Origin: Lysobacter sp. cf310
Lineage (GTDB): Bacteria; Pseudomonadota; Gammaproteobacteria; Xanthomonadales; Xanthomonadaceae
DNA: 64,000 nucleotides
Direction: 5' to 3'
Assembly (NCBI RefSeq): GCF_900114355.1
Contig: NZ_FOSS01000001.1
Coordinates: 124,001-188,000, forward strand
The notes under the pieces: generated by a model
Database searches by the model: none
What the model was told of the DNA's origin: nothing
What the model saw: the letters and a program-made list of their open reading frames with translations, nothing else
Shown here: positions 12,262-46,244 of the stretch, in pieces
Numbering within the stretch: position 1 is the stretch's first letter
Layout of the letters: every line of letters begins with the position of its first letter
Made by a program: the position numbers and the translations under genes

Positions 12262-13135
12262 TCCGCGCCTGGCCGTCTGGCGCGAACGCGCCGACGCCGC
12301 GCTCGCACGCGCGCTGCCCGACCCGAACGCCTCGCCGCAGGCGCTGCACGCGGCCATGCGCCATGCCGTGCTGCTCGGCGGCAAGCGCCTGCGTCCGCTG
12401 CTGGTCTACGCGACGGGCGCGCTGTTCGACGCCGACGAGGCCGCGCTGGACGCGCCCGCGGCCTCGGTCGAACTGATCCACGCCTATTCGCTGGTCCACG
12501 ACGATCTGCCGGCGATGGACGACGACGCCCTGCGCCGCGGCCAACCGACCGTGCACGTGGCCTACGACGAAGCCACCGCGATCCTGGCCGGCGACGCACT
12601 GCAGTCGCTGGCCTTCTCGGTGCTGGCCGACACCGCGACCGCCGACGGCGTGCGCGTGGCCCTGCTGCGCACCCTGGCCGAGGCCGCCGGCGCGGCGGGC
12701 ATGTGCGGCGGCCAGGCCCTGGACATCGCCGCCACCGGCACCGGCGCGGCGCTGGACCTGTCCGCGCTGGAACGCCTGCACGCGCTCAAGACCGGCGCCC
12801 TGATCCGCGCGGCGGTACGCATGGGCGCGCTCTGCGGCGGTGCCGATGCGGCGGCGCTGGACGCGCTGGACCGCTACGCGCACGCCCTGGGCCTGGCCTT
12901 CCAGGTCCGCGACGACATCCTCGACGTCGAAGGCAGCAGCGCCACGCTGGGCAAGACCGCCGGCAAGGACGCCGCCCAGGACAAAGCGACCTTCCCCGCC
13001 CTGATCGGCCTGGACGGCTCGCGCGCGCGCCTGGACGCGCTGCTGGAAACCATGCACACCGCGCTGGCACCCTTCGGCGCCAAGGCCGCGGCGCTGGCCG
13101 AACTGGGCGAGTTCGCGGCGCGACGCAATCATTGA
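12254..13135 (+). CDS. ispA: Farnesyl diphosphate synthase (polyprenyl synthetase)
   Basis: Makes farnesyl diphosphate from isopentenyl diphosphate and dimethylallyl/geranyl diphosphate, feeding undecaprenol and quinone side-chain synthesis. The first aspartate-rich motif DDLPAMDDD starts at D83, GGKRLRPLL precedes it, and the second aspartate-rich motif DDILD follows QVRDDI. The 293-aa length is normal. Translation is probably coupled to xseB through the 8-base overlap; dxs, often next in this operon, is absent. The last codons (EFAARRNH) and the DNA just downstream are duplicated 209 bases on. Confidence 0.96.
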
Positions 13136-13517
13136 CTCGCGCGAGCGACGCTCGCGCGAGCGCGTGCGCCACACGGCAATGCGGTCCGCCCCAAAAATCC
13201 GCGGCGCCCGCTCGGAGCGCGCCTCGCAGGATGCGGTGACGCCCGCATCATCGCGATCACCCGGAGCCCCGCGACGATGCGGTTCGCCTAAGGCTCACTG
13301 CATCCTACGGACTGGCCGGATTCACGGCGCGACGCAATCATTGACTCGCGCGAGCGACGCTCGCGCGACCGCAGGCTCCGCACAGCAATGCGGTTTACCC
13401 AAACATCCGCAGCGCCCGCTCGGAGCGCGCCTCGTAGGATGCGGTGACAACCGCATCATCGCGATCACCCGGAGCCCCGCGACGATGCGGTTCGCCTAAG
13501 GCTCACCGCATCCTACG
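13099..13517. repeat. 209-bp tandem duplication spanning the ispA 3' end
   Basis: Two imperfect units with an offset of 209 bases. Unit 1 covers the last 12 codons of ispA and downstream DNA (about 13099-13307); unit 2 is about 13308-13517. GCGCGACGCAATCATTGACT at 13119 recurs at 13328. Each unit ends with a palindromic segment reading as aggatgcggtga...gatgcggttcgcc...catcctacgg. This segment belongs to the same family as the repeats near 45906-46083. Confidence 0.8.
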
Positions 13518-13556
13518 GGCGAATAGCGTCGCAGTTTCGGCCGCGATCTAAAGTCA

Positions 13557-18693: not shown

Positions 18694-21600
18694 TCAGCCC
18701 GCCGGAGGCGCCTCGCGCCCGGCATTGCGGGTCTGCTCGCGGGTCATCACCTCGACCTTGGGCTCCTTCCAGGGGCCGGTCACCCGGTAGGTCTTGGCGC
18801 CGATCTGGCTCAGCGGCTTCTGCAGCACGGTGCCGGCGGCCGCGCCGATCGCCGCGCCGACCGGCCCGGCCGCGATCGCGCCCACCGCGGTCAGCAGGTT
18901 GCCGGTCTTGGGCCGCACCTCGATGGTCTGGTCGTAGCTCTGCGCGCGCAGGTTGGTGGAGCCGCGGATGTTCACGGTCGCGGCCGGACCGTCCATGACC
19001 AGATCGTCGCTGCGCGCGCTGCCGGCGCCGATGGCGATGTGGCCGCCGACGCGGTTGAAGGCGAAGCCCTTGGAGAACAGGTCGCGGAAATCCAGGCCCA
19101 GGCGCCGCGGCAGCTGGGCGATGCTGAGCAGGCCGATCACGCGCCCGGTGCCGGGCTCGACCTCGAGCAAACGCCCGTCGCGCACGTCCAAACTCAGGCC
19201 GCCGTCCAGCGAGCCCAACGCGAACGCGGCCGGACTGCCGGGCCAACCGGCATCGAAACGGATCTTGGCCTTGCCGCCGGCGACCAGGCCGCCGAAACCG
19301 AAGCCGGTGAGCAGCGCGCCGGTGTCGCCGCTGTCGATGTTCATGGTCAGGCGCGTGCGCGCGGCCGCGCCGCGGCCGTTCCAGTCGCCGCTGATGTCGA
19401 TGGCCTGCTTGTCGCCGCGGGTCTGGATCTGTTCCAGGCGCATGCCGCTCGCGGTCGGGCGGGTGCGCACGCGCGCGCTGCCCATGCGCGCGTCGCCCAG
19501 GCGCAGATCGGCGATGTCGATGGTCAGCGGCGGCACCTTGGCGGGGTCGAAACTGTTGTCGACGGAATTGACGGCCGGCGCCGGAGTCGTTGGCGCGGGC
19601 GCGAACGCGCCGATCGCCGGGCTACCGGCGGAGGCCGACGCGCTCGGCGCGCGCCAGTACACGCGCTCGAACTTGCCGGCCAGCGGCGCGGAGGGATCGG
19701 CCGGTGCCAGCACCGCACCCTCCAGCGACGGGCCTTCGACGCGCACCGCGGTGGCGCCGCGCGGCGCCGGCGCCACCACCAGGCGCGTATCGGCGAACAC
19801 GCCGCCCAGCAATTGCAGCTTCTGCGCGGTCACGTCGACGCGCTGCAGGGGCAGCCCCTCGCCTTCGCCCTTCTTGCCGCCCTCGGCGAACGCGATCCAT
19901 TCGATCGCATCCAGGGTGCCGGTGCGGCCGCTGGCGATCAGGCCGTGCGCGGGCGGCGCTTCGTCCACGCGCGTGGCGCCCAGGGCGACGCGCACGCCGG
20001 TGCGGCCGTTGACGGTGCGCGCGCGCAGCGCCATCACGTTGCCGAAGCCGACCCGGATGTCGCCGCTGCCCACCGGCAACGGCGTTTCGACGGTGGTCGC
20101 CAAGCTGCCGGCGGCCGGCTTGCGTAGCGGCGCCGGCAATTCCAGGGCGGTGCCGACCAGATTGGAATGCAGTTGCAGCAGGGTCGGCGGCGTCGCGCCG
20201 GCGATCGCCTTGGGAATCGCGATGCCGATGGTCCAGTTCGAGCGGCCATCCAGATAAGGCTTGAGCCAGCCCAACTCGGGCGCGCGCTCGATCAGCGACT
20301 GCGCGCCGACGCTGGCGTCCAGCCCGGCCTCGAACACGTTGCCGCGATCGCGCACGTAGTCGCCCGCGCGCAGCGAAAGCTTGCCGGGCTGGCCCTCGTG
20401 ACGCACCGCCAGGTCGTTGGCGCCGAAACCGCCGCGCGCGTACTCGGCGCGGCCGCGCACGTCCTCGAACGCGAGTTTCCAACGCGCGTCGGCGAGCTTG
20501 GCGCCGGCCAGATCGACCGAGCCCGAGATCGCGGTGACGCTGCCCGGCTTCAGCGGCAGTTTCATGTTGAAGCCGACCTGGGCCGGACCGCTGGCGCTGA
20601 GATTGGCGAAGGTGTCGGCGTGCTGCTTCTGCAGCGGACTCTGGCGCAGCATGGTCAGCAGTTGCGCGGCGTCGGAGGCGGCCTGCGCCTGCACCGTCAG
20701 CGTGCCGTCCTTGTAGTGATCGATACCGGCATGGATCTGCTGGATGCCGACGCCGGCGAGCTTGCCGACGCCGTCGACGCTGAAGCCGTCGGCGATGAAG
20801 GCGACGTCGGCGTCCAGGCCTTCGGCCGCCGGCCATTCGGGCTGGAACTTGACCACCGCCTGGTGCAGCTTCGCGGTCGCCTCGAAGCGGCCGTTGCGGT
20901 CGCGGAACGGCCAGTTGTCGAGATCGCCGGACACGATCGCATGGCCGTTGCGCACGCTGCCGCCGATCAGCGCCGAGTCCAGCCAGTGAACCAGATTCGG
21001 CGACATGCTGTGACGGATCCAGAAGCCCTTGGCCACCGGCACCGCGGCCTCGTCCAGATCGGCGGCGATGTCGATCCACGGCCGCGTGCCGTCGCCTTGC
21101 CACCACATGCCGCCGCGCGCGCGCGCGCCGAAGCCCTCGCCCTTGATCGTCAGCGCATGCGTGCCGATGCGCCAGCCCGCGCCTTCGCGCCAACCGGCGA
21201 CGGTGCCGTCCAGAGTCACGGTGTGGACCACGCCGAAGCCCGACGGCCAGTCGAAGCGCATCGGCGAGGCCTGGTCCAGACGCAGACTGAAACCGTCGGC
21301 GTCGGCGTCGATGTCGCCCGACAGGCCGCTCAAACCCGGCGCGGTGCCGACCGCGGCGAAACCCAGGCCGTCGATGCGCGCGCTCGCGCGCAGCGGACCG
21401 TCGCGACGGCCGGCCAGCGAGATGCGTTGCAGCGATACCTGCGGCCGGGTCTGGTGCAGCCAGCGCCGCAGGCCCGCGGGCACGCGATCGCTGAGCGCGG
21501 CGGCCTGCAGCAGCGGGCCGGCATCGATGCGATCGGCCAGCAAGGCGTAACGCTGGCCGCCGGCGATCGCCAGGCCGTCCAGCACTTGTTGCTTGGCGCC

Positions 21601-22572
21601 GCCGCCGATGCGCAGGCGCGGCGCGTCGAAGCGCCAGCCGCCCTCGTCCAGGCGCCAGCGCGCGCGCGTTTCGACGCTGTCGAATCGCACCCGCGGCACG
21701 GCGTCGTCGCCGTCGCCCAGCGGCGCGCCGCGCAAGGCGACACGCTCCAGCGCGGCGTCGACGGTGACCATGGCGACGCGGTGGCCGCGCAGCTCGGCCC
21801 AGGCCTCGGCGCGGCCCTGCCCGCTCTCGGCGCCGATGCCGGCGACCTGCAGCAGCGCCGCCCAGGCGCTGAGATCGGCGCGGCGCGCGCCGGCATAGGC
21901 GCGGCCGTCGCCGCGCTTGCGGTCGAAATCCAGAGCCGCATCCAGGGGCGACGCGGGCGCGCCGGCGACGCCGACGCTGGGCCAGGCGCGCAGGCCCGCG
22001 CGCACGCGGTCGCCGTCCACGCGCAGGCGCAGATTGATCTTGGGAATGCGCGCATCGACGCCGAGCTTGGGCGCGATCACCGCCAGCTTGCCGTCGATCA
22101 CCTGCAACTCGCCCAGGCCTTCCAGCGCGGCCAGCGGATCCTTGCTCGGCTGTTCCTGCCCTGGCAGCCCGCGCACCTTCCAGCGGCCGTCGTCGGCGCG
22201 TTCCAGGGTCAGGTCCAGACCGTGCAGGCGCAGTTCCGAGAAGGAATGGCCGGGCAGCAGACCGGCATAGATCGACACCAGCATTTCGGTATCGCCGACC
22301 ACGAACGCCTGCGCGCCCTCGCCGACCCGCAGCCCATCCAGTCGCAGCAGCGGCCCACGCCGCGTCCACTGGGTCTCGACCCGGTCGAACGCGACCGGCC
22401 GTCCGGCGCGCTGGCTCAACCACGCCGCGATCCGGTCCGGATTGCGCTCCGCCATCGGCAGGATCTGACTGGCCACGCCCAGCAGCACCGCCAGCAGCAC
22501 CAACAGCACCGCGCCGGTGTAGGCGACGCTACGGCGGGCGAAACGCAGACGGCGGCGCAGCGGGGTCGGCAC
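18694..22572 (-). CDS. yhdP: YhdP family AsmA-like phospholipid transport protein
   Basis: Very large envelope protein (1292 aa). An N-terminal membrane helix (RRSVAYTGAVLLVLLAVLLGVA, about residues 15-36) is followed by a long periplasmic part of the DUF3971/AsmA_2 family. In E. coli, YhdP with TamB and YdbH bridges the inner and outer membranes and carries phospholipids outward. The C-terminal block (LLSIAQLPRRLGLDFRDLFSKG, YRVTGPWKEPKVEV) is typical. The GTG at 22572 starts MPTPLRRRLRF and sits 8 bases from a 144-bp tandem array. The GATGAGGG that precedes the start codon is part of the first array unit. The frame stays open far upstream through the array, but that extension is repeat translation and is rejected. 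Confidence 0.93.
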   Translation of the reverse strand: MPTPLRRRLRFARRSVAYTGAVLLVLLAVLLGVASQILPMAERNPDRIAAWLSQRAGRPVAFDRVETQWTRRGPLLRLDGLRVGEGAQAFVVGDTEMLVSIYAGLLPGHSFSELRLHGLDLTLERADDGRWKVRGLPGQEQPSKDPLAALEGLGELQVIDGKLAVIAPKLGVDARIPKINLRLRVDGDRVRAGLRAWPSVGVAGAPASPLDAALDFDRKRGDGRAYAGARRADLSAWAALLQVAGIGAESGQGRAEAWAELRGHRVAMVTVDAALERVALRGAPLGDGDDAVPRVRFDSVETRARWRLDEGGWRFDAPRLRIGGGAKQQVLDGLAIAGGQRYALLADRIDAGPLLQAAALSDRVPAGLRRWLHQTRPQVSLQRISLAGRRDGPLRASARIDGLGFAAVGTAPGLSGLSGDIDADADGFSLRLDQASPMRFDWPSGFGVVHTVTLDGTVAGWREGAGWRIGTHALTIKGEGFGARARGGMWWQGDGTRPWIDIAADLDEAAVPVAKGFWIRHSMSPNLVHWLDSALIGGSVRNGHAIVSGDLDNWPFRDRNGRFEATAKLHQAVVKFQPEWPAAEGLDADVAFIADGFSVDGVGKLAGVGIQQIHAGIDHYKDGTLTVQAQAASDAAQLLTMLRQSPLQKQHADTFANLSASGPAQVGFNMKLPLKPGSVTAISGSVDLAGAKLADARWKLAFEDVRGRAEYARGGFGANDLAVRHEGQPGKLSLRAGDYVRDRGNVFEAGLDASVGAQSLIERAPELGWLKPYLDGRSNWTIGIAIPKAIAGATPPTLLQLHSNLVGTALELPAPLRKPAAGSLATTVETPLPVGSGDIRVGFGNVMALRARTVNGRTGVRVALGATRVDEAPPAHGLIASGRTGTLDAIEWIAFAEGGKKGEGEGLPLQRVDVTAQKLQLLGGVFADTRLVVAPAPRGATAVRVEGPSLEGAVLAPADPSAPLAGKFERVYWRAPSASASAGSPAIGAFAPAPTTPAPAVNSVDNSFDPAKVPPLTIDIADLRLGDARMGSARVRTRPTASGMRLEQIQTRGDKQAIDISGDWNGRGAAARTRLTMNIDSGDTGALLTGFGFGGLVAGGKAKIRFDAGWPGSPAAFALGSLDGGLSLDVRDGRLLEVEPGTGRVIGLLSIAQLPRRLGLDFRDLFSKGFAFNRVGGHIAIGAGSARSDDLVMDGPAATVNIRGSTNLRAQSYDQTIEVRPKTGNLLTAVGAIAAGPVGAAIGAAAGTVLQKPLSQIGAKTYRVTGPWKEPKVEVMTREQTRNAGREAPPAG

Positions 22573-22579
22573 TAGAGCG

Positions 22580-23212
22580 CCCTCATCCGACCCTGCGGTC
22601 CAGCTTCTCCCAGGTTCGGGAGAAAGGAACACGAAAGCACCGCCCCCCTCTCCCGCTTGCGGGAGAGGGGGGCGGTGAGGGGACGCGAGGTAGCGAGTCG
22701 CGACGCAGCTGCGATCGCGCGTGCCCTCATCCGGTCCTGCGGACCACCTTCTCCCGCTAGCGGGAGAAGGGAACACAAAAGCACCGCCCCCCTCTCCCGC
22801 TTGCGGGAGAGGGCTGGGGTGAGGGCACGCGAGGTTGCGAGTCGCGACGCAACTGCCACCGCACCTGCCCTCATCCGGTCCTGCGGACCACCTTCTCCCG
22901 CTAGCGGGAGAAGGGAACACGAAAGCACCGGCCCCCTCTCCCGCTTGCGGGAGAGGGCTGGGGTGAGGGGACGCGAGGTTGCGAGTCGCGACGCAACTGC
23001 TACCGCGCGTGCCCTCATCCGGTCCTGCGGACCACCTTCTCCCGCTAGCGGGAGAAGGGAACACGAAAGCACTCGCACCCTCTCCCGCTTGCGGGAGAGG
23101 GTTGGGGTGAGGGGACGCGAGGTAGCGAGTCGCGACGCAACTGTGGCCGCGCGTGCCCTCATCCGGTCCTGCGGCCCCCCTTCTCCCGCTAGCGGGAGAA
23201 CGGGCGCTGCAA
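22580..23212. repeat. 144-bp tandem repeat array between rng and yhdP
   Basis: Units begin with CCCTCATCC at 22580, 22724, 22868, 23012 and 23156, a constant period of 144 bases, with about 4.4 copies. Each unit carries two palindromes, TTCTCCCGCTAGCGGGAGAA and CCTCTCCCGCTTGCGGGAGAGG, joined by a less conserved stretch with GCGAGTCGCGACGCA. The first unit is the most diverged. 144 is a multiple of 3, so minus-strand frames stay open across it. The 651-base gap between rng and yhdP is almost entirely this array. Confidence 0.92.
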
Positions 23213-23223
23213 GAGGCGTTTTT

Positions 23224-24711
23224 TTAAAGCAACACGACATCGAACTGCTCCTGCGCGTACTGGTCGTCCGGCTGGAAGCGGATCGACTTGCCCAGGAACT
23301 CCTCGAGTTCGGCCACCGCCGCCGACTCTTCGTCGGTGATGCGCGCGACCACTTTCGGCGATGCGATCACCAGCAGCCGCGGGGCGTCGAATTGACGCAC
23401 CTGGCGCACGATGTCGCGGAAGATTTCGTAGGTCACCGTCTCCGGCGTCTTCAAGGTGCCGCGGCCGCCGCACTCGTGGCAGGGCTCGCTGAGCTGGCGC
23501 TCCAGGCTTTCGGTGGTGCGCTTGCGCGTCATCTCGACCAGGCCCAGCGGCGAGAACTCGTACACCGTGGTCTTGGCATGGTCGCGCGCCAGCGACTTCT
23601 CGAGCTGGCGCAGCACCTGACGCTTGTGCTCGGCGTCGGTCATGTCGATGAAGTCGATGATGATGATGCCGCCGAGGTTGCGCAGGCGCAGCTGTCGGGC
23701 CACCGACTGCGCCGCTTCCAGGTTGGTGCGGTAAACGGTCTCCTCCAGGTTGCGTTGACCCAGGAAGGAGCCGGTGTTGATGTCGACCGTGGTCATGGCC
23801 TCGGTCTGGTCGATCACCAGGTAGCCGCCGGACTTCAGCGGCACTTGCTTGTCCAGGGCGCGCTGGATCTCGTCCTCGACCCCGTACAGGTCGAAAATCG
23901 GACGCGCGCCGGTGTAGTGCTCGATCTTCTCGTCCAGGCCCGGCATGTACTGGGCTGCGAACACGCGCAGGCGCTCGCAGGTCTCGCGCGAATCGACCTT
24001 GACCTTCTCGACGTCGCGCCGCATCAGATCGCGCACCGCGCGCAGCGGCAGGCTCAGATCCTCGTACACGCGCTCGCCCACGCGCGAGCTGCGCGATTTC
24101 TCGGCGATCAGCGCCCAGGCGCGGCTGAGGTAGGCCACGTCCTCGGCCAGGGCCTCGGCGGGCTGGCTTTCGGCGTTGGTGCGCACGATGTAACCGTGGT
24201 TCTCGCCGGCCGGCGCCAGCGCGGTCACGTGCGCCTTCAGGCGTTGCCGTTCGGCCTCGTCCTCGATCCGCGCCGACACCCCGACCACGCGCGTGCGCGG
24301 CAGCAGCACCAGGTAGCGCGAAGGAATGCTGAGCTGGGTGGTCAGACGCGCGCCCTTGCTGCCGATCGGGTCCTTGACCACCTGCACGATGATTTCCTGG
24401 CCCTCGCGCAGCAGCTCGGCGATCGGCCGGGTCGGGGTCGGCGGCAGCGGGGCCTCGTCGCCCTCGCCTTCGCTGACCTGGGTCGGCTTGACGATGTCGG
24501 CCGCGTGCAGGAACGCGGCGCGCTCCAGGCCGATCTCGACGAAGGCTGCCTGCATGCCCGGCATCACCCGCTGGACCTTGCCCTTGTAGATGTTGCCGAC
24601 CACGCCGCGGCGCCAGCCACGCTCGATGTGCAGCTCCTGCAGCATGCCGTTTTCGACCACCGCGACTCGGGTTTCGCGCGGGGTGACGTTGACGAGTATT
24701 TCTTCGGTCAT
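23224..24711 (-). CDS. rng: Ribonuclease G
   Basis: Endoribonuclease of the RNase E/G family that matures the 5' end of 16S rRNA and processes some mRNAs. At 495 aa it is RNase G, not RNase E, with no long C-terminal degradosome scaffold. An S1 domain near the N-terminus (GNIYKGKVQRVMPGMQAAFVEIG) precedes the catalytic core with GGIIIIDFIDM and FSPLGLVEMTRKR. The zinc-link-like CHECGGRG is in place. The ATG at 24711 gives the conserved MTEEILVNVTPRETRVAV start. It is transcribed with maf upstream, and the 144-bp array follows downstream. Confidence 0.97.
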   Translation of the reverse strand: MTEEILVNVTPRETRVAVVENGMLQELHIERGWRRGVVGNIYKGKVQRVMPGMQAAFVEIGLERAAFLHAADIVKPTQVSEGEGDEAPLPPTPTRPIAELLREGQEIIVQVVKDPIGSKGARLTTQLSIPSRYLVLLPRTRVVGVSARIEDEAERQRLKAHVTALAPAGENHGYIVRTNAESQPAEALAEDVAYLSRAWALIAEKSRSSRVGERVYEDLSLPLRAVRDLMRRDVEKVKVDSRETCERLRVFAAQYMPGLDEKIEHYTGARPIFDLYGVEDEIQRALDKQVPLKSGGYLVIDQTEAMTTVDINTGSFLGQRNLEETVYRTNLEAAQSVARQLRLRNLGGIIIIDFIDMTDAEHKRQVLRQLEKSLARDHAKTTVYEFSPLGLVEMTRKRTTESLERQLSEPCHECGGRGTLKTPETVTYEIFRDIVRQVRQFDAPRLLVIASPKVVARITDEESAAVAELEEFLGKSIRFQPDDQYAQEQFDVVLL

Positions 24712-24779
24712 GGCGTGGAAGGCGCTCTGCGGGTCGTCAACGGTGGAGGGAAGGCAGCGCGGCGGCCGGCGCGCGCGGG

Positions 24780-25349
24780 TCACGCATCGAGTCCGGCCTC
24801 GCGCAGCAGACGCACGGTTTCGTGCAGGGGCAGGCCCATCACGCCGGAATAGCTGCCCGACAGACGGATCACGAAGGCCTCGGCGCGGCCCTGGATGGCA
24901 TAGGCGCCGGCCTTGCCCTGCCATTCGCCGCTGGCGACGTAGGCGGCGATGCGCGCCTCGTCCAGGGCTTCGAATTCGACTTCGGACACCGAGACGGTCT
25001 GCGACTCGCGCGCCGGCGAGACCAGCGACACCGCCGAGATCACCCGGTGGCTGCGTCCGGACAGGCGGCGCAGCATGGCCGCGGCATCGTCGCCGTCGCG
25101 CGGCTTGCCGAACACCTCGTCGTCCAGCACCACCTCGGTGTCGGCGCCCAGCACCAGCGCGCTCGGATTGGCGACCACGGTCAGCAAACCGGCGCCGGCC
25201 TTCTCGCGTGCGACCCGGCGCACGTAGTCCTCGGCGGGCTCGCCGGGCTGGCGATGCTCGGGGATATCGAGGTCCAGGACCCCGAACGGCAGGCCCAGGC
25301 GGCTTAGCAATTCGTGGCGTCGTGGCGATTTGGAGGCGAGATAGAGCAT
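24780..25349 (-). CDS. maf: Maf-family nucleotide pyrophosphatase
   Basis: House-cleaning pyrophosphatase acting on dTTP, UTP and modified nucleotides. The N-terminal signature [16 protein letters not shown], the conserved [15 protein letters not shown], and the C-terminal [11 protein letters not shown] and [11 protein letters not shown] mark the YhdE branch. 189 aa from the ATG at 25349; an ATG 12 bases upstream would add MLRR and cannot be excluded. It lies 68 bases before rng, as in E. coli (yhdE-rng). Confidence 0.93.
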
Positions 25350-32949: not shown

Positions 32950-33110
32950 GTAGCAAATCCCCCCTGCCCCCCTTTTCCAAAGGGGGGAACGACAAAGGCG
33001 GAACCGCCGATTGCTCGCTCGGCTTCGCTTCCGCTTTTCCAAGGGGGGAACAGCAAAGGCGGATCAGCCGATTGCTCGCGCGGCTTCGCTTCCCCTTTGA
33101 ATAGGGTGAA
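32950..33110. repeat. CAAATCCCCCC-type element followed by a 61-bp tandem duplication
   Basis: A plus-oriented element at 32950-32990 (AGTAGCAAATCCCCCCTGCC and its CCTTTTCCAAAGG hairpin). It runs into two imperfect units of about 61 bases, each reading GGGGGAAC-(gaca/agca)AAGGCGGA-...-CCGATTGCTCGC-(t/g)CGGCTTCGCTTCC. This fills most of the gap between lptE and leuS; no gene seen. Confidence 0.75.
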
Positions 33111-45835: not shown

Positions 45836-45905
45836 GGGCGCAGCGGCGGAGCGCCGCTCCGCTTCAAGCCAAGCCCCTCGTAGCACGCCATGCGCCAAAA
45901 TCGCC

Positions 45906-46083
45906 CGGTGACCAGCCCCATGGCGACGGTGCGGTTATCACCGCACCCTACAGCCTTCGTAGGATGTGGTGAGCCAAAGGCGAACCGCATCGCACGGCGA
46001 CCGGCCCGAGGACGACGGTGTGGTTATCACCGCACCCTAGGACCTTCGTAGGAGGTGGTGAGCCAAAGGCGAACCGCATCGCC
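45906..46083. repeat. Two tandem 89-bp palindromic repeat units
   Basis: Units about 45906-45994 and 45995-46083, each with GGTTATCACCGCACCCTA, then CCTTCGTAGGA(t/g)GTGGTGAGCC, then AAAGGCGAACCGCATCG. The outer parts pair as a cruciform. The same family, inverted, forms the end of each unit near 13442-13517. The remainder of the 409-base gap (45836-46244) shows no gene; TACAAT at 46231 is a possible -10 for the next gene, which would make its mRNA nearly leaderless. Confidence 0.75.
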
Positions 46084-46244
46084 GCGCCATCGTCCCGACG
46101 ACACCGGCCCGACTCCTGACGCCCCTGGCCGCGCCATTCGCGCCAGCCCGTCGCCCCCCCGCACGACCGCCCGCGCCCACGCCGACCCCAAGCCCCCATC
46201 GCGGCACCGCCGCGCATGCCCGCGCTCGCCTACAATCTGGCGCC

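Follow-up and report, generated by a model that had tools for sequence, protein, structure and literature searches.

In Lysobacter sp. cf310, rng and yhdP are separated by 651 nt, a gap occupied by a tandem array of a 144-bp unit. On balance, we favor the reading that a dispersed REP/BIME-like element without a tag, lodged at the rng 3′ end, has recently expanded in tandem, and that the array would probably protect this end and leave yhdP expression lowered or uncoupled. The locus offers a well-resolved case of a dispersed palindromic repeat expanding in one lineage at a gene junction and, apparently, joining a translation start, and relatives with zero dimers, one dimer, or another hairpin at the same place form a natural series with which to probe intercistronic REP/BIME-like elements. 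Positions below are those of the window, by which we mean the whole 64,000-nucleotide stretch of DNA that was analyzed.

Architecture of the 144-bp Array

Both flanking genes lie on the minus strand: rng, encoding ribonuclease G (23224–24711, stop codon TAA at 23224–23226), matches the NF008689 equivalog above cut-off (697 bits), and yhdP, encoding an AsmA2-domain protein (18694–22572), matches the TIGR02099 equivalog above cut-off (947 bits), with the gap running from the rng TAA to the yhdP GTG. The array (22579–23206, minus strand) comprises four full units and a partial fifth of only ~52 bases. The first-pass annotation had described five starts at exact 144-base spacing between the two genes, and this is borne out both by direct repeats at a spacing of 144 and by Tandem Repeats Finder (22579–23200, period 144, 4.3 copies, 92% matches, score 1023), with unit starts at 22579, 22723, 22867, 23011, and 23155, although the copy number depends on the assembly, since the genome is a draft in 12 contigs. 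The array contains eight exact CTCCCGCnnGCGGGAG palindromes, compared to an expectation from shuffling of 0.18 in the whole 64-kb window with up to one mismatch allowed.

On the sense (minus) strand, each unit runs from a TT′ half through a ~41-nt linker to a CT′ half and a 16-nt spacer. The TT′ half consists of the hairpin TTCTCCCGCtaGCGGGAGAA, a small side hairpin (GGTCC-gca-GGACC), and the tail GGATGAGGG, and the CT′ half of the head CCCTCACC followed by the hairpin CTCTCCCGCaaGCGGGAGAG; the two halves are mutually inverted with near-complementary tails, in the fashion of a BIME dimer. The array holds five TT′ halves, the last of them degenerate, and four CT′ halves. Starting from the side of rng, the TT palindromes (all minus strand) lie at 23181–23200, where the stem starts ~20 nt past the rng stop codon, 23037–23056, 22893–22912, and 22749–22768, with the degenerate one at 22605–22624 in the unit adjoining yhdP, and they alternate with CT palindromes at 23080–23099, 22936–22955, 22792–22811, and 22648–22667, the last of which (in unit 1) extends to an 18-bp stem (22638–22677) and then a weakly U-rich tail. 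The tail GGATGAGGG occurs five times on the minus strand, the final occurrence (22588–22580) ending 7 nt before the yhdP GTG.

Interior units share 91–96% pairwise identity, while the unit adjoining yhdP shares 85–88% with the others. The earlier description of a first unit abutting yhdP needs qualifying: this unit is the most degenerate of the set and its TT palindrome is broken. The pattern of identities is as expected if interior units are homogenized and edge units escape. Each full unit carries both of the palindromes that had been proposed to form mRNA hairpins, and the RNA hairpins of the array are very strong by prediction, with the gap folding at −441 kcal mol–1 (z of −38, 10 shuffles). 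We note that the window contains three further tandem repeats: a 208-bp unit in two tandem copies at 13112–13518 (Tandem Repeats Finder score 695, 91% matches), a 61-bp repeat with CCCCTTTTCCAAAGGGG at 32969–33098, and an 89-bp repeat in two copies at 45900–46102.

A Dispersed Palindrome Family and Its Known Counterparts

The array units are members of a family of perfect palindromes, TCTCCCGCnnGCGGGAGA, that is spread across the genome. Exact YTCTCCCGCnnGCGGGAGAR palindromes number 92 in the 4.7 Mb genome, compared to 0 for the backwards control, and a BLAST search of the genome with its own array returned 81 matches. Tandem arrays also occur at seven or more further loci, each with a locus-specific period (mostly 139–220 bp), and because these arrays have periods of their own, amplification is local. 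The wider distribution is patchy, with the palindrome family found in 35 of 398 Pseudomonadota genomes and counts within the genus (20 genomes) ranging from 11 to 204, and copies of the same layout are present on Sinorhizobium and Xanthomonas sacchari plasmids. Gene contexts were taken from a crude GC3-based gene caller, the same that extended yhdP into the array, and by this caller 24 of 27 palindrome sites in this genome are intergenic. These 24 gaps, which are mostly the better BLAST matches and a subset of all copies, comprise 18 between co-directional genes, 6 between convergent genes, and none between divergent genes, and the palindrome lies at a median distance of 86 nt from a 3′ end vs 272 nt from a 5′ end.

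With its short palindromes, many copies, extragenic location, and alternating orientation in dimers and arrays, the family has the features of REP/BIME elements. As in the BIMEs built from REP palindromes in E. coli, two palindrome subtypes stand in opposite orientation, extragenically and 3′ of genes, and occur as dimers and as longer arrays of regular spacing. The sequence, however, is different, and the unit sequences and dimer alignment, inspected by eye, showed no GTAG/CGTC tag beside the palindromes, the termini being CCCTCATCC and GGGGTGAGGG. Nor did we find the palindrome at any of the 30 Y1_Tnp loci examined for a RAYT link (two of them from this genome, as a rule with 1.5 kb on each side), where the genus holds 38 such loci and this genome three. 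A ~110-bp copy of the same layout lies on pSymB of Sinorhizobium meliloti; it reads CCCTCATCCGG..CCACCTTCTCCCCGC/GCGGGGAGAAGG, spacer, CCCTCTCCCCGC/GCGGGGAGAGGG..GGGTGAGGG, is 77.5% identical to the 144-bp unit over bases 2–103, and differs in having one extra C-G pair per palindrome. This Sinorhizobium-type copy is RIME1-like and may be RIME1 itself, the Rhizobium-specific intergenic mosaic element, a rhizobial element of ~108 bp with two large palindromes that was reportedly described by Osteras in 1995.

Closer to Lysobacter, the SMAG repeats of Stenotrophomonas maltophilia, which belongs to the same family (Lysobacteraceae), likewise occur as palindromic monomers, dimers, and clusters (PMC2613905), but they are GTAG-tagged, with the consensus GTAGTGCCGGCCGCTGGCCGGCA, and have no sequence kinship to the array unit. 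Their numbers differ between isolates, and the element at a given locus can be replaced by a member of another family (PMC2613905). Taken together, the family is an untagged BIME/RIME-like palindromic repeat, and the array is an ordinary local tandem expansion of a known kind of repeat. A text search of the literature with the letters of the palindrome returned unrelated papers only, and comparison with Rfam families gave only sub-threshold matches, mostly of microRNA families, to the GC-rich hairpins, which we discounted.

The rng–yhdP Slot in Relatives

We compared the slot across 20 genomes of the genus, one per species, with the genome of the window designated G000. A single TT′-linker-CT′ dimer occupies the gap in G003, G010, and G011, and G014 retains a degenerate dimer in a flank (TAAAAA...CTTGCAGCGCCC past the rng stop) that resembles that of the window, while G005 has one intact palindrome. 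In G012, G013, and most others, the slot instead holds an inverted pair of GGGATTC-type heptamers unrelated to the palindrome. GGGAATC heptamers of this kind have been described in xanthomonads, where they often form inverted pairs and lie near stop codons (PMC4692102); they fill the rng–yhdP slot in most relatives, but are G-quadruplex-capable simple repeats with no sequence kinship to the 144-bp unit. The closest relative, G013, with 95.3% identity over rng and yhdP, has a slot of the heptamer type and no dimer. Given that the slot holds a single dimer in three congeners, a degenerate one in a fourth, and the GGGATTC repeat in the closest relative and most others, the expansion seen in the array is recent and specific to this lineage.

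On a tree built from rng and yhdP with the gap excluded, slot type changed at least seven times among the 20 species, with unrelated inverted-repeat families occupying the slot in different species. The gap folds at z of −4 or below in 17 of the 20 species, corresponding to 17 of the 18 with an inverted repeat there; the remaining one of these is G014 (z of −2.5), and values are near zero in G018 and G019. A hairpin in the gap is thus not essential, as these two of the 20 congeners have no unusual one. Beyond the genus, several other Lysobacteraceae have heptamer-type hairpins in the slot, and others have gaps of 6–30 nt.

Differences between species extend to further arrays of the family. The array at C6:540 kb (C6:538500–542500 in G000) has eight palindromes, one of them imperfect, at mixed spacing, its counterpart in the sister species G013 has nine at a clean 143-bp period, and it is absent from G010, G012, and G014. 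The array at C7:162 kb is present in G000 and G013 with equal palindrome number but differing spacings, and is likewise absent from those three species; we note that CCCCTTT/AAAGGGG-type repeats fill the slot of this array in G014 and G010. These two arrays support fast turnover between species. The first-pass annotation had suggested that copy number may vary between strains; at rng–yhdP, the range from no dimer in G013 through one dimer to the array of the window supports copy-number change between species.

Translation Start of yhdP and Possible Effects of the Array

The yhdP GTG (22570–22572) aligns with an ATG in all 19 congeners, followed by MPTPLRRRL-like sequence, and ten of the 19 have no in-frame ATG, GTG, or TTG upstream, with a stop 12 nt upstream of the start in G003. 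The start is well supported by this shared codon and by the ten congeners with no upstream in-frame start, in agreement with the first-pass annotation, for which a start codon elsewhere would have been damaging. It had further proposed that the repeat provides the ribosome-binding region of yhdP. The best anti-Shine–Dalgarno (anti-SD) match is GAGG, 8 nt before the GTG and inside the tail, GGATGAGGG, that closes the last TT′ half (22580–22588, minus strand), and its predicted duplex (−6.1 kcal mol–1) is similar in strength to that of GCGGAGCG, the SD-like motif that in most relatives lies between the hairpin and the ATG, outside any repeat. No GCGGAGCG precedes the yhdP start in the window. 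In G014 and G003, the best SD match likewise lies, as judged by eye, in or against the purine-rich arm of the repeat. When we looked for start codons behind repeat tails, matches were numerous, and several lay within arrays. Based on sequence, the last array copy therefore appears to supply the yhdP ribosome-binding site: the position of the motif and the conserved start hold, and actual use of GAGG as the Shine–Dalgarno sequence is what we infer from them.

The course of events that we favor would begin with a single TT′-linker-CT′ dimer in the slot, as seen in relatives, copied in register to about four, presumably by unequal crossing-over or slippage, such that the array would come to terminate in an unpaired TT′ half abutting the start of yhdP, with the GAGG in its tail taking over from the usual GCGGAGCG. 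On a shared rng–yhdP transcript, which we assume, the units would fold into successive stable hairpins, none with a strong U-tract behind it. These could keep exonucleases off the 3′ end of rng and could lower or partly uncouple yhdP expression. According to work cited in PMC5082802, E. coli REPs protect mRNA from 3′–5′ decay, take part in termination, and stall ribosomes when no more than 15 nt from the stop codon, and the first hairpin of the array, ~20 nt past the rng stop, lies beyond this E. coli limit. By analogy with these REPs, protection of the rng 3′ end with partial uncoupling of yhdP would be the most likely effect.

The main rival is that the array is a neutral passenger, that is, a repeat family that lands 3′ of genes and, wherever the site tolerates it, grows in copy number through slippage or unequal crossing-over, leaving rng and yhdP expression essentially unchanged. 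We regard this as a real possibility, though the less probable one: it is consistent with the patchiness of the family (35 of 398 genomes, 11–204 copies within the genus), with the seven or more changes of slot content, and with the two species that have no unusual hairpin, but sits less well with the strong folding in 17 of 18 species with an inverted repeat (G014 being the exception at −2.5) and with the replacement of the SD region by the array, to which the translation start, at least, must have adapted. Alternatively, the slot could be kept hairpin-filled regardless of sequence, with GGGATTC pairs and TCTCCCGC palindrome dimers swapped, and copy number here could tune yhdP relative to rng via the repeat-derived SD. 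We consider this quite doubtful. Weighing also on our favored reading, predicted SD accessibility is only moderate (~0.3–0.4 unpaired) and, in predicted folds, showed no steady trend with the length of the upstream array and no steady fall with unit number; a dependence of translation on copy number is thus not predicted by the fold, and this counts against simple dosage via SD masking.

Slightly less doubtful, yet still unlikely, is that each unit acts as a terminator or attenuator that splits rng from yhdP, the latter having its own promoter. The 18-bp stem at 22677–22638 with the tail CTTTCGTGTT is the one clear, if weak, terminator-like site on the sense strand, and in E. coli, BIMEs have been tied to attenuation of transcription (Espeli 2001, as cited in PMC5082802). 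However, no long U-tract was found behind any of the array hairpins, nor was a sigma-70-like promoter found in 22500–23300, where the scan is a poor test given the high GC content of the organism. Finally, yhdP might begin at an upstream in-frame GTG, giving YhdP a repeat-coded N-terminal extension, since the unit length of 144 is divisible by three, no stop codon interrupts the frame back to that of rng, and in-frame GTGs recur once per 144 nt (60, 204, 348, and 492 nt upstream). This we consider highly improbable, as the homology starts exactly at MPTPLRRRL in all relatives, upstream in-frame starts are missing in ten of 19, a stop lies 12 nt upstream in G003, and the extension would sit before a hydrophobic N-terminal segment.

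For annotation, we note that the repeats contain no stop codons and give rise to long frames, spurious or extended, at 22657–24852 on the plus strand and 18694–23064 on the minus strand. An automatic annotation could mistake such frames for genes or for additional N-terminal sequence of YhdP. Annotators should be aware that the repeats carry the yhdP frame across the array as far as a probably false start at 23064, and that this longer frame is most likely spurious.
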